Shown here piece by piece: positions 7,349 through 58,600 of a stretch of 64,000 nucleotides of DNA. The notes below the pieces were generated by a model that saw nothing but the letters and a program-made list of their open reading frames with translations, was not told where the DNA came from and made no database searches. The position numbers and the translations under genes were made by a program. Numbering within the stretch: the first letter of the stretch is position 1; each line of letters starts with the position of its first letter. Location of the stretch: positions 62,001 to 126,000 of the forward strand of contig JARVKI010000022.1 in assembly GCA_036674765.1 (NCBI GenBank), read 5' to 3'. Source of the stretch: Seiridium cupressi (taxonomy: Eukaryota > Ascomycota > Sordariomycetes > Amphisphaeriales > Sporocadaceae).

Positions 7349-8641
7349 ATGCCGGTAAGCAAGAAACACATTTCTCTTCATGACTCCCGGCAGTCATGGG
7401 CCACTCTGAGACTAACGGCTTCTGATTAGATTGGGGACCTCCTCGCTGAGATCACTGGCGAGAAGCCAGCATCTGCGCCTCCGCGTGCACCCGTGATCAA
7501 GCCTGCTACGACCACTACCACCACTACTACAACTGGGTTGAAGCGTAAGGCAGATGGCGACTCGAACAGCAATGGCATGCCGAGCAAGGCCGTGAAACAG
7601 TCACAGTCGGGAGTGCGAGATCCGGTAACAAGGAAGCCTTCTCCGCCCATATCACGTCCGGCTACAGTGGCAAAACCCATGGCCTCCTCAATCAACGGTC
7701 AGCGTCCTGGTGCTAGTGGTTCTGCGTCGATGTCTCGAGACAAACCGTACACAGGAACTGCTACTCCCGGTCGTGTGATTCGGAAGCCCGAGACGCTCAC
7801 TAGTCTTCCCTCCAGGAAGGACAGCACTGCTTCAAATGCCCGCCTCGGGTCCAGTTCCGTCACTCTGAATGCTCCCAAGGTAGCCCCGCCGAAGCCGTCG
7901 CCCACGACGCCAACTAGTGCAGGCCCATCGAAGGTTCCAAAGAAAGGCTCGTTTGCTGAGATCATGGCACGAGGTGCGAAGGCTCAGCAGATAGCACCCA
8001 AAGCTGGGCTCATTCAGCACAAAGCTATTGGTCAAACTGTGTTGAGTAAGAGAGAACGGGACGAGCAGAAGTCCAAGTGGAAGAGTGGAAAGGTTGCGAA
8101 TGATGGCCGATCGAGTACTATACCATCTCGAGACAAGCTAGCTCCAGGTGCAAGGAACGGAGCCACTGCACAGCCGGCTTCCAAAGGCAACAGCCGACCC
8201 GTTTCCGCGGGAAAGGACGCACCCGAGAAAAAGCTGAAGAAGGCTGCTATGGTCTCGACTGGCTACACGGGAACGGCACGCCCGGCCACAACAAAGGCTT
8301 CAGACGCAAAAGCTACTACGTCTTCCAGCTCCCGCGCGCGGCCCGCAGGTGGTTTACTTGCACCACCCCGTACCACTCGCCGTGATCGGTTTGCTGATGA
8401 AGACTCGGATATGGACGGCTTCATCGATGATGATGAAGATGAGGAGGATACTGCACCACGTGGATACAGATATGCAGACGAATACGACTCCGATAGTGAC
8501 ATGGAGGCTGGAGCTGACGATATCTACCGGGAGGAGCAGAGGGCCTTGCGTCAAGCCCGTGAAGATGATGCAAGGGAAGAAGCATTACTGGAGAAGCTGA
8601 AGCGAGATAAGGAAGCCAGAAAGAACCGTGGTGGTTATTGA
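7349..8641 (+). CDS. SPT2: SPT2 chromatin protein (histone H3-H4 chaperone)
   Basis: Exon 1 is only ATG CCG (7349-7354). A 75-nt intron (GTAAGC..., branch ACTAAC, TTAG) leads to exon 2 at 7430-8641, giving 405 aa. The protein opens with IGDLLAEITGE, then a long Ser/Thr/Pro/Lys-rich disordered region with a run of nine Thr. The SPT2 domain is at the C-terminus: RDRFADEDSDMDGFIDDDEDEED, then YDSDSDMEAGADDIYREE and a charged helix ending KRDKEARK. Acidic DMDGFI/DDIYREE elements are the family's H3-H4 binding signature. Known role: histone recycling and suppression of cryptic transcription during elongation. The tiny first exon explains why the body of the gene lacks its own natural ATG at the N-terminus. 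Confidence 0.93.
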
Positions 8642-9221
8642 GTCTGGCGCAGGGCATGTCCTGGATTTATGTCCATTTGTTAGGAGTCAATCATGGTCTG
8701 ACCTAATGGATAGGAGGAGCCATTGCATATGGAGGAGTTCACTGCTTTTTACACACACAGGGCATACCAGCATAGGCAAAGGCGAAGGCGTTCAGGGTCA
8801 AAGGTCACCGGAATTTTACTTTTGAGGACGAGTGATAGTATTGAGTTGTCGCGGCATATGTGCTGCTAAATAGATTGGGCGGCTGTTTAAAGACGCCAAG
8901 ACACTTCATAATAAACCTTTGGCATGTTCATCCTACACATCGCCCGCCTGCCACATCACGCATCCGTTTCTACACTAATGTACCGGCCTTCTTATTCCTT
9001 ACCACATAGACTTGAAGACTAGGGCATTCGTTCCGTGAGCGTTAAGCACAGCGCAGCCTCTCCACACTCGGCTTCGTTCGGCCTTGCACAAAGCCCTGTC
9101 AGATAGAATGGTCACTGACGACCTGACACCGGAGCCTGAGCCCTGAATATGTGACTCATGGCCAATCTCCCATAGTATTCTTGCCAATTGTGCGCAATTA
9201 AACACACGTTTCTTCTATCCA
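8642..9221. other. Intergenic between Spt2 and the tRNA gene
   Basis: Contains the Spt2 3' UTR and the upstream flank of the initiator tRNA gene. No open frame with recognisable product. Confidence 0.6.
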
Positions 9222-9348
9222 AGCACCTTGGCGCAGTGGAAGCGTAAGTCAAAACCGTGACAGTCTGAGTTCAAGAGTGGATCATTAACATTGTACAGGC
9301 GCCGGGCTCATAACCCGGAGGACGCTGGATCGAAACCAGCAGGTGCTA
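9222..9348 (+). tRNA. Initiator tRNA-Met (CAT) with an intron in the D-arm
   Basis: Two segments, 9222-9243 and 9299-9348, join to a perfect 72-nt cloverleaf. Acceptor stem AGCACCT pairs with AGGTGCT (7/7); D-stem GCGC/GCGC; anticodon stem CCGGG/CCCGG around loop CTCATAA (anticodon CAT at 9309-9311); T-stem GCTGG/CCAGC; discriminator A9348. Initiator hallmarks are present: A1:T72 pair, three G:C pairs flanking the anticodon loop, and T-loop ATCGAAA (A54 and A60) instead of TTC. The Pol III A box (about 9229-9239) and B box (GGATCGAAACC, 9327-9337) are intact, one on each side of the insert. A T6 terminator follows. There is no intron at the canonical 37/38 position. Only one gene of this kind is visible in the window. 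Confidence 0.9.
9244..9298 (+). other. GT...AG intron-like insert within tRNA-iMet
   Basis: The 55-nt insert starts GTAAGT (9244-9249) and ends TACAG (9294-9298). It has a branch-like ATTAAC (9284-9289) about ten bases before the AG. Removing exactly GT to AG restores the D-stem with no mismatch. Its length and ends match the protein-gene introns in this window, not a tRNA-endonuclease intron. A shift of one base (9245-9299) gives the same mature RNA, but only the listed placement has GT-AG ends. Splicing by the spliceosome is inference. Confidence 0.75.
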
Positions 9349-9354
9349 TGTATC

Positions 9355-9360
9355 TTTTTT
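9355..9360 (+). terminator. RNA polymerase III terminator (T6)
   Basis: Six T on the coding strand, six bases after the tRNA 3' end, the standard Pol III stop signal. Confidence 0.85.
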
Positions 9361-55638: not shown

Positions 55639-58600
55639 ATGGCATCGTACAAACCCAGCAGCGAAGTTGGACATCTGTCCATGAAGATGTACTACCCCGA
55701 ATGGACCGCGTACAATACAGCCCGACACCAGGCCGTCACTGGAACTGAGCATCGTGGTCTTCAAGATGAGGAGTACGCCGAGTTTGTGCTGAGTTCGAAC
55801 TGGATCATGCTTCCCGCAGGTCTGGAAGCGTTCTATAGACAACTTGGGGAGATAATCAAGGTACGACATGGCCCACATTTCGGTTTATTTCCAATACACT
55901 GTCGTGACCTCGTAAATGGTTTGACCCAAAAAAGCCTTGGTCCTAACTTGAGTGCAGAACCCCGAGATAACGTATGATATTGACATCGGCTGCTTCCGAG
56001 TTCGATGTCGCCGCGATGAGCAACATGATATCGTCATCGCTTGCAACGACATCATGGCTGAGATAGTCAAAGACGTGACTAAAGATCGCTCAAAGGAAGA
56101 ACCGCTCATATCGTTTGATGTACGTGTTTCGTCTCAAGTTTGCCTTCGATAGCTGACTCAAGACATGTAGACTGGTGAGAGCGACTTGGTCCGCTACATA
56201 TCGGAATGGCGACTTGTGCCCCTCCAGGAAGCGGAGCGACACAGCTACGAAGTGTTCTCCTTCCCACGTGATATAGTGGACTTTCCATTCCGAGGTGCTT
56301 GGAAAGTGCCTGAAGATGATGTCCGAGAGGGTCTGACTATCCGGAAGTTGTTTCTCGGCCATGATCCGGTAAAATCAATGACAAACTCTACCGGATGCTT
56401 AGTGACAAGCGGGACGGATGGCCGTACTCTGTACTTTGGTGCCAACTCCTCCGAGCAAATTTCTCAGGCCAAGCGGAAAATGGCAAACATCTTGAAATAC
56501 CATGTCAGTTGACCAACCTGAAAAAAGGAATATGCAATGCTAACGACTTTGTAGCGCCTCGACTCTCGGGTGGGATCACATGAGATCGTCATATTCGCAG
56601 AAGATGACTCGGCTAGAATTGTTGACCTCAGATACGTGGCTCACACCGACCGTCGTTATCTGAGAAATGTGGTTCTGGATCCTACCAAGTTTCAGCCGGA
56701 CATCGATTATGCAAAACTCTACGAGAAGGGTAGTTTTCTACGGTCGACAAGGAGACAACAAGGAGACTTGGTACCTGCTGCAGCAGAACTTAGTCCTGCC
56801 ATTCAGCTCGAAGAAGTCGCCCAGTCCTTTGCACCTTTTAAGACATGGAAGGTGAAGGAGAAGGACCAAGTCTGGGATGCTGTGTCTCCGGCGCCCAGCC
56901 AGCCTGAGACTCTGGCAGTCCTAGATGATGATCGTCTCGAACAGGTTGATCCGCAGAGGGCTCCTCATGTTTTGGAATGGGCAGCAGCTCTGCCACCCTT
57001 TGAGAGCATGTCGATTACCGCAAAGCGAGAATCCTCGAATAGCGTTCGACCAATGTCTCTCCTAGATCTTCCTGCTCAAGCACCCCTTCCCACAGACGGC
57101 GTTCTCATCGCACTTGACGGATCGCCGGAAAAATCTCTCGGCCCTAGACAGGGAGATACATTGCGCACGGGTACGGCCCATGGACAATCTGGCAATCATT
57201 ATAGCGCGCCTAACTACAGGTCCCGAAGTTCAATGGCATCGAGTCCTCGTACTTCCAGCGCTGATATCCAATCGCTAGAGCGTCCAAAAGAAGCATTGGG
57301 GCATGCCTCTGCTGCCCACATTGGTCCCCAGGGAGCTTCGGATGAGTTCTTCGGGGGACAGTTCACTCCTCGCGCAGCACAAGAGAATGGCTCCCAACAG
57401 GAGCCTGCAGATCCGCTGAGTTCATCGCTTCGAAGACCGGCAAGCACTGTACATCCAACAGTGCCAACATCAACGCTTGCCAACGAAAAGCAGGGTTCCT
57501 CTCGGTCCTCCAAGACCAATAATCAGAAAGCGCCGCCTTTTCCGGGTGCCAGAGAGAGAATGATGTCACGAGGACTTGATTCGGGCACTCGCGAGAAAAT
57601 CCAACAACATCTCATAGGCATGCTGGAACCATTACGCTTCCATCAAGGTCTTGTTTACATGAGAGTGGAGATTGGACGATTCTGGTTCACAAAGATCAAT
57701 TGGCGACAAATTACCCTCCCGGGCGTGCAAGGCAGGTCCAATGCGGGTGTAAAAACTGTTGAAGCCATGGAAGAATCTCTCAAAGGCCACTGCATTGCGA
57801 AAGACTTTTACTTCACCAAGATCCTCAGCTTGTTTGGTGGAGATGCCAATCATTTTGGCAACATCCCGTATACCGACGCCTCCAAGATGTGGCTGAAAGG
57901 TACTAGGCGTGCAGTCTACGAATTTTGGTGTGCAACAAAATCTGATTCGGGTGGCAAGACTTATTTCATTTTACAGATTGATGCATTGACTTTCGCCTAT
58001 ACATTGCGCCGGGCTGATTCAACTGAGAGCGATGTCTATGTTCATTGTTCCAAGCGTGACTTTGACTTTAGGGTCGTGGTTGGGGCGTCTTCCGATATAG
58101 AGGATAACTGTGGACGCTTTGCGAGGGAGGTTGTCGCCTCGTTGAAGGTCATGTGAGTACCAGTGTCCCCCCCCCCCCCCTTCTGTCAACACGGCTGGCT
58201 CAGCGGTACTGACTGAACATCCAGCCCCCAAGATGAAGAAGGTAGCAGTCCCCCTCGACTGGAATTTATCAACTTCCGGGATTGGGGCGTCGAGATCAAG
58301 AGTGTCCGGTACCGACAGCTTGCAGCCTTTAAGCACCACGACAACAGGTGCGAGCTTCATGTCACTCATGTGCACTGCATGAAGAAGAAGACCACCAAGA
58401 AGAGCGATAGTGTCTGGTATCTGTCTGCTTATCCGGATCTGGGCAAACCCGATGCTGGGTACTTCCCGACCTGGTTTGAGGCTTACATCACACCTACCAA
58501 GGCCGATCAGGAATTCGCTCAGAACCGCGAGCTGGTCTTTGCCGAGGAAACTACGTGGACTTCAGAGAGTCTCAAGGACGCCGGTACAATCGATGATATG

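Follow-up and report, generated by a model that had tools for sequence, protein, structure and literature searches.

Several tRNA genes of Seiridium cupressi were found to carry GT-AG introns, and their sequences suggest that the spliceosome, besides the usual tRNA endonuclease, helps to make tRNA in this fungus. The gene at the center of the analysis is a nuclear initiator tRNA-Met (iMet) gene at positions 9222-9348 on the forward strand of the window, i.e. the complete analysed stretch of 64,000 nucleotides from contig C22 (GenBank JARVKI010000022.1). Its D stem is split by an insert of 55 nt. We consider it highly probable that this is a functional initiator tRNA gene transcribed by RNA polymerase III (Pol III), with a spliceosomal intron of the U2 type in the D stem. 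The assignment to the U2 type was based on the GT...AG borders, the donor and branch consensus with their spacing, the size, and the presence or absence of the insert between paralogs. The observations behind the overall explanation are the anatomy of the gene, splice signals that recur in 9 inserts spread over 8 tRNA genes, the exact restoration of tRNA exons, a presence/absence pair and covariation.

Exon 1 (9222-9243) provides the 5' strands of acceptor and D stem, the D loop and the first half of the 3' strand of the D stem. The A box (TGGCGCAGTGG, 9229-9239), assigned by its generally known consensus, is located entirely 5' of the insert. The proposed intron (9244-9298) starts with the 5' splice site GTAAGT (9244-9249), contains the branch-site-like sequence TTAAC (9285-9289) with the branch A at 9288 followed by 10 nt, and ends with the 3' splice site TACAG (9294-9298). 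The donor fits the GTRWGT consensus and the branch site was compared with the RCTRAC consensus, both given for fungal introns in general and for fungal U3 introns; the latter were judged spliceosomal, end with YAG and show branch distances of 6-36 nt (PMC5832005). Exon 2 (9299-9348) supplies the rest of the D stem, the anticodon arm with CTCATAA, the variable loop, the T arm, the acceptor 3' strand and the discriminator A. It includes the B box in its initiator form (GGATCGAAACC, 9327-9337), likewise assigned by general consensus, and by sequence both boxes are intact. The first run of at least four T residues 3' of the gene, TTTTTT at +7 (9355-9360), is the proposed Pol III terminator. All of these features lie on the forward strand.

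The insert falls between positions 23 and 24 of the standard numbering and interrupts the 3' strand of the D stem. Its borders can be drawn in two equivalent registers, one of which alone yields GT-AG. An earlier note on this DNA had located the insert away from the canonical site of tRNA introns, which was confirmed (23/24 versus 37/38). It had also claimed that excision of the 55 nt from GTAAGT to TACAG gives a perfect initiator cloverleaf; indeed, the minimum-energy fold of the spliced 72-nt RNA is the full cloverleaf. The spliced RNA displays A1:U72, the CAU anticodon, G:C pairs adjoining the anticodon loop and A54 in the T loop. Its anticodon stem CCGGG/CCCGG encloses the loop CUCAUAA, and the T loop reads AUCGAAA; together with A1:U72, we take these to be features of initiator tRNAs. 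As run on the window, neither ARAGORN nor Rfam at its gathering threshold reported the gene, for which the score with RF00005 was 26.1 bits (threshold 29). A covariance model built from tRNAs of the same genome with inserts allowed (R1) gave 60.4 bits, with the gene's own exons among the rows from which R1 was built.

The assembly searched comprises 45.36 Mb in 228 contigs. One protein encoded in the window shares 99% identity with a protein of Seiridium cardinale, in agreement with a close relationship to that species (Sporocadaceae, Amphisphaeriales, Sordariomycetes). A total of 59 nuclear tRNA genes were seen: 48 from the family scan (66 matches minus 18 on contig C174, which is probably the mitochondrial genome), 3 iMet, 1 Phe, 4 Pro-AGG and 3 Arg-ACG genes. 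Eight of the 59 carry 9 GT-AG inserts, a lower bound from an uneven and incomplete sample, and the assembly may hold further interrupted tRNA genes. Among the 48 nuclear genes of the family scan, 2 had a GT-AG insert. Three Arg-ACG genes with canonical introns (L143, L144, L145) were missed by the genome scan with RF00005, so the tRNA list is incomplete. The idea that tRNA identities absent from the family scan represent interrupted genes was dropped, as these three genes had also been missed.

The eight interrupted genes represent five tRNA identities. A second iMet gene on contig C55 (L029), which differs in exon 1 from the window copy by a single D-loop base, is interrupted by 61 nt where the window gene has its insert and by another 57 nt in the variable loop. 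As the same site is occupied there by an insert with another interior and the same kind of splice signals, the insert of the window gene is more than chance. The elongator Met gene on C13 (L032), the one gene of this identity found in the family scan, contains a 52-nt GT-AG insert in the variable loop, the Lys-TTT gene on C26 (L085) a 59-nt GT-AG insert in the variable loop, and the Phe-GAA gene on C28 a 55-nt insert in the anticodon stem; all three possess an anticodon-loop intron in addition. Three Pro-AGG genes, two on C38 and one on C59, have inserts (60, 55 and 59 nt) that follow the D stem and precede the anticodon stem and, again, one anticodon-loop intron each. Over the 9 inserts the positions 23/24, 26/27, 30/31 and 46/47 (numbered by hand) were observed, while the canonical 37/38 was never used. 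The second iMet with the same site, the seven further GT-AG inserts and an insert-free Pro-AGG paralog (see below) support the proposal of the earlier note that the D arm of this initiator tRNA is split by a GT-AG intron of the mRNA type. The variable-loop introns of iMet C55, elongator Met and Lys-TTT are all found at 46/47, after AGG; repeated gain at a preferred site and spread between genes are alternative explanations.

Each of the nine inserts can be placed in 1-3 equivalent registers, a single one of which starts with GT and ends with YAG; the lengths range from 52 to 61 nt. The motif YTAAC is present in 9/9, with 10-15 nt after the branch A. It takes the form CTAAC in eight; the sole TTAAC belongs to the window copy and is the weakest branch site of the nine. 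The donors are GTAAGC (4), GTAAGT (2), GTGAGT, GTAATT and GTTCGT, with GTRNGY in 7/9. These figures have to be read with the route of discovery in mind: four of the nine inserts (the C55 pair, elongator Met, Lys) were found without a splice motif in the query; four (Phe and Pro) came from a pattern with CTAAC and YAG, where both signals are non-independent; and the window insert was chosen for its ends in the earlier note. A random insert with two registers would show GT-AG in about 2 of 256 cases, hence the GT-AG borders of the four unbiased inserts are not chance. The pattern hunts yielded 21, 57, 100 and 158 places versus 58, 172, 276 and 259 in the reversed controls, i.e. no overall excess, and tRNA genes were picked from these places by R1 or by eye, in the 158-place hunt among the matches listed. 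R1 applied to 62 loci from the first two of these hunts and from earlier searches gave one match, Phe. The viral DNA collections contained no matches; prokaryote DNA gave four matches on bacterial contigs, which look like coding or unrelated DNA as judged by eye, with one weak model match of 20.2 bits.

For comparison with mRNA introns, motif-defined introns of the same genome were sought at 46-81 nt and had a median length of 58 nt. There were 41 of them versus 32 in reversed sequence, and the loci were partly chosen by CTAAC...YAG and hence biased; from this set the length and T-run figures alone were used. Depending on the mode, 19-21 introns were predicted in the window, with lengths including 50, 51, 52, 55, 62, 67 and 75 nt. 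Other predictions from coding signals were too noisy or too strict, one of them giving 4 introns. Two predicted mRNA introns of the window, at 7355-7429 (GTAAGC...GACTAAC...TTAG) and 56504-56554, have the same build as the tRNA insert.

The conservation evidence comes from paralogs inside this one assembly. A fourth Pro-AGG gene, on C16, has no GT-AG insert and equals the first C38 copy except inside the anticodon-loop intron. The mature sequences of both are the same, and the start of the 3' flank is common to both (TAACGTTATCA). Where the C38 copy has GATT-insert-CTCGC, the C16 copy reads GATTCTCGC, with GATT/CTCGC just as predicted for the spliced junction. The product of excision at the GT-AG borders is therefore a sequence that is present as a gene, and the presence or absence of the insert between the C16 copy and the copies on C38 and C59 is precise. 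The anticodon-loop intron is retained in the C16 gene. Should this gene descend from a spliced precursor, the GT-AG intron would have been removed ahead of endonuclease splicing, which is speculation.

Copies without a GT-AG intron were also found for Phe (L054, C2) and Lys-TTT (L066, named by ARAGORN). The third iMet gene, on C27 (L155, 112-200), is free of a GT-AG intron and has a 17-nt anticodon-loop intron (59.9 bits). Introns in initiator tRNA genes are unusual. The iMet pattern had returned 35 places, of which 11 were covered: the 2 known copies, the C27 copy, and 8 places of about 150 bases each with no tRNA match. The C27 copy refuted a working assumption that every iMet of the genome contains a GT-AG intron. 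The suggestion that the GT-AG intron gates translation initiation was weakened by the same copy, which has the canonical anticodon-loop intron only. Judging from this assembly, spliceosomal tRNA splicing is not the cell's sole source of iMet, Phe and Lys-TTT.

When the three iMet genes (C22, C55, C27) were aligned in their spliced form, as the earlier note had proposed for the copies of the genome, all 63 of 63 pair cells were kept. Of the 21 pairs, 4 differed on both sides between the copies (T stem, three; D stem, one); shuffled controls reached 4 such pairs in 8 of 500 cases, and slid controls did not exceed 1. Although only three sequences were compared, this conservation of pairing speaks for selection on the interrupted iMet copies. 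The minimum-energy fold of the spliced C55 iMet is not a cloverleaf, although all stem pairs can form. In the predicted fold of the unspliced window iMet (z-score -1.47) each splice site is partly base-paired: the GU of the intron, following the GC of the exon, takes part in a mimic of the D stem (GCGC with GCGU); the CAG at the 3' end pairs with a stretch of the intron. By this model, splicing of the window iMet may compete with folding of the precursor.

Signals for Pol III were compared among the interrupted genes. In 8/8 the first run of at least four T residues begins 6-17 bp 3' of the gene, and the longest T run inside any of the 9 inserts is at most 2. TTT was absent from all 9 inserts and present in 25/41 motif-defined mRNA-type introns (Fisher p-value of 0.0016; 0.007 with one insert per site) and in 14/32 reversed-sequence controls. 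With TTTT, a closer approximation of a true Pol III terminator, the comparison (0/9 versus 9/41) was not significant (p-value of 0.18; 0.58 with one insert per site). When the interiors of the inserts were shuffled with their composition kept, equally few TTT-bearing inserts resulted in 50 of 5000 cases. The scarcity of T runs in the inserts may be taken as modest support for readthrough by Pol III. The distance from A to B box in the C55 iMet is about 160 bp, which is longer than usual.

The U6 gene on C33 (L157, G000:C33:71662-71862) contains a 50-nt intron (GTAAGC...CTACTAAC...TAAG) after CACTAAGG. The earlier note had pointed to mRNA-type introns in fungal U6 genes as a precedent for spliceosomal introns in Pol III transcripts, and this gene with its GT-AG intron provides that precedent within the same assembly. 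Two further U6 matches, L156 (G000:C55:27051-27158, 62.6 bits) and L158 (G000:C12:574434-574548, 49.0 bits), have no obvious intron. Upstream of each of the three iMet genes found lies TGTGACTCA, at 70 bp (window), 91 bp (L029) and 78 bp (L155), with TGACTCA at 9152-9158 of the forward strand in the window. The TGASTCA contained in it is the Gcn4/CPC1-type core, and was found in 4 of 59 tRNA upstream regions of 100-150 bp each, with 0.6 expected from its frequency in the window or about 1 from window shuffles. This element could couple initiator supply to general amino-acid control.

From these observations we infer Pol III transcription, spliceosomal removal and subsequent folding, end processing and, where needed, endonuclease splicing. 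Starting from the A and B boxes, Pol III would read exon 1, intron and exon 2 up to the T run. U1 would pair with GTAAGT and U2 with the YTAAC site, and the spliceosome would take out the lariat. Only then could the D stem and the full cloverleaf form, to be followed by end processing and modification. The tRNA endonuclease needs a folded mature domain, and for this reason the pre-tRNAs of Pro-AGG, Phe-GAA, elongator Met and Lys-TTT would most likely meet the spliceosome first and the tRNA endonuclease second. With somewhat less confidence, we lean toward the wider view that the spliceosome is a regular tRNA-making enzyme in this lineage. Its substrates would come from two of the three iMet genes and from the single elongator Met gene detected, as well as from several genes for Pro, Phe and Lys, and on some molecules it would work in relay with the tRNA endonuclease. 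The supply of start tRNA would then depend partly on splicing capacity, and tRNA bodies would be open to the gain of spliceosomal introns.

Four other explanations were weighed against a spliced Pol III gene. Spliceosomes usually work on Pol II transcripts, and the spliceosome might act here on Pol II transcripts begun upstream of the tRNA genes, with the Pol III transcripts remaining unspliced. The shared TGTGACTCA, a typical bZIP-type site of Pol II genes, 70-91 bp upstream of the three iMets, would fit such a scenario. However, the A and B boxes are intact, a T run follows 6-17 bp past each gene, the inserts are free of TTT, and U6, a Pol III gene which has introns in other organisms as well, possesses the same kind of intron in this genome; we therefore regard Pol II transcripts as an unlikely source of the splicing. 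The interrupted genes could also be dead copies or insertion-bearing pseudogenes, with supply from the iMet on C27, the Pro-AGG on C16 and the Phe on C2. At least one copy without a GT-AG intron does exist for iMet, Pro-AGG, Phe and Lys-TTT, and eukaryotic tRNA genes with insertions in the D or T arm have been taken for pseudogenes (PMC4090602). Decay of this kind is quite improbable in view of the 63/63 stem-pair cells kept by the spliced iMets with both-sided changes between copies, of complete splice signals in five tRNA identities, and of the T run after each gene together with inserts lacking TTT.

As a further possibility, the tRNA endonuclease might remove the inserts as non-canonical introns at ectopic positions, which are known from archaea, cryptomonad nucleomorphs and Cyanidioschyzon; the GT-AG ends would then be incidental. 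Archaeal ectopic introns at 22/23, 25/26, 30/31 and 45/46 are close to the present sites and sometimes share a gene with a canonical intron, and ectopic introns are known from nucleomorphs and a red alga as well (PMC4090602). A strict bulge-helix-bulge (4-bp center plus a flanking helix of at least 2 bp, borders slid by up to 3 nt for both sets) was found in 0/9 inserts, a weak test, as just 2/7 canonical introns of the genome pass it. GT-AG ends plus a branch-site motif in 9/9 inserts weigh against this mechanism, which needs neither, and we judge it very unlikely. That the inserts are remnants of self-splicing group I or II introns is extremely improbable: a group I intron is known in a cyanobacterial initiator tRNA, but 52-61 nt is far too short for either type and no Rfam family of any kind reached the gathering threshold in the window.

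If the spliced Pol III gene proposed here is real, structured Pol III precursors of about 127-190 nt are within reach of the spliceosome, and initiator tRNA supply is tied to pre-mRNA splicing. Standard tRNA finders would miss such genes, and the phenomenon may consequently be commoner than known. The Pro-AGG presence/absence pair is well suited to the study of how such introns are gained or lost.

No precedent for spliceosomal introns in tRNA genes was found in the open-access literature, as judged by titles or the start of abstracts. Canonical eukaryotic tRNA introns, located at 37/38 and removed by the Sen endonuclease and a ligase, likewise interrupt nuclear tRNA genes, and here they share the elongator Met, Lys, Phe and Pro genes with GT-AG inserts. 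Unlike them, the present inserts are found outside the anticodon loop and show GT-AG ends and a branch-site motif. Ectopic introns with a bulge-helix-bulge, known from archaea, nucleomorphs and Cyanidioschyzon merolae, also occupy D arm, anticodon stem and variable loop, sometimes with several per tRNA (PMC4090602, PMC3978253), and detection of non-canonical introns has been described for archaea (PMC8450103). The inserts studied here differ from these by mRNA-type splice signals, and the strict motif was found in none of the nine in the weak test mentioned. The introns of fungal U6 snRNA and U3 snoRNA genes are similar: they, too, are short, have GT-AG ends and RCTRAC branch sites and lie within genes for non-coding RNA, and U3 paralogs with and without an intron coexist in one genome (PMC5832005). 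In contrast to the U6 and U3 cases, the hosts in S. cupressi are tRNA genes of five identities with introns at four cloverleaf positions, one of these genes has two GT-AG introns, and several of them hold a canonical tRNA intron as well.
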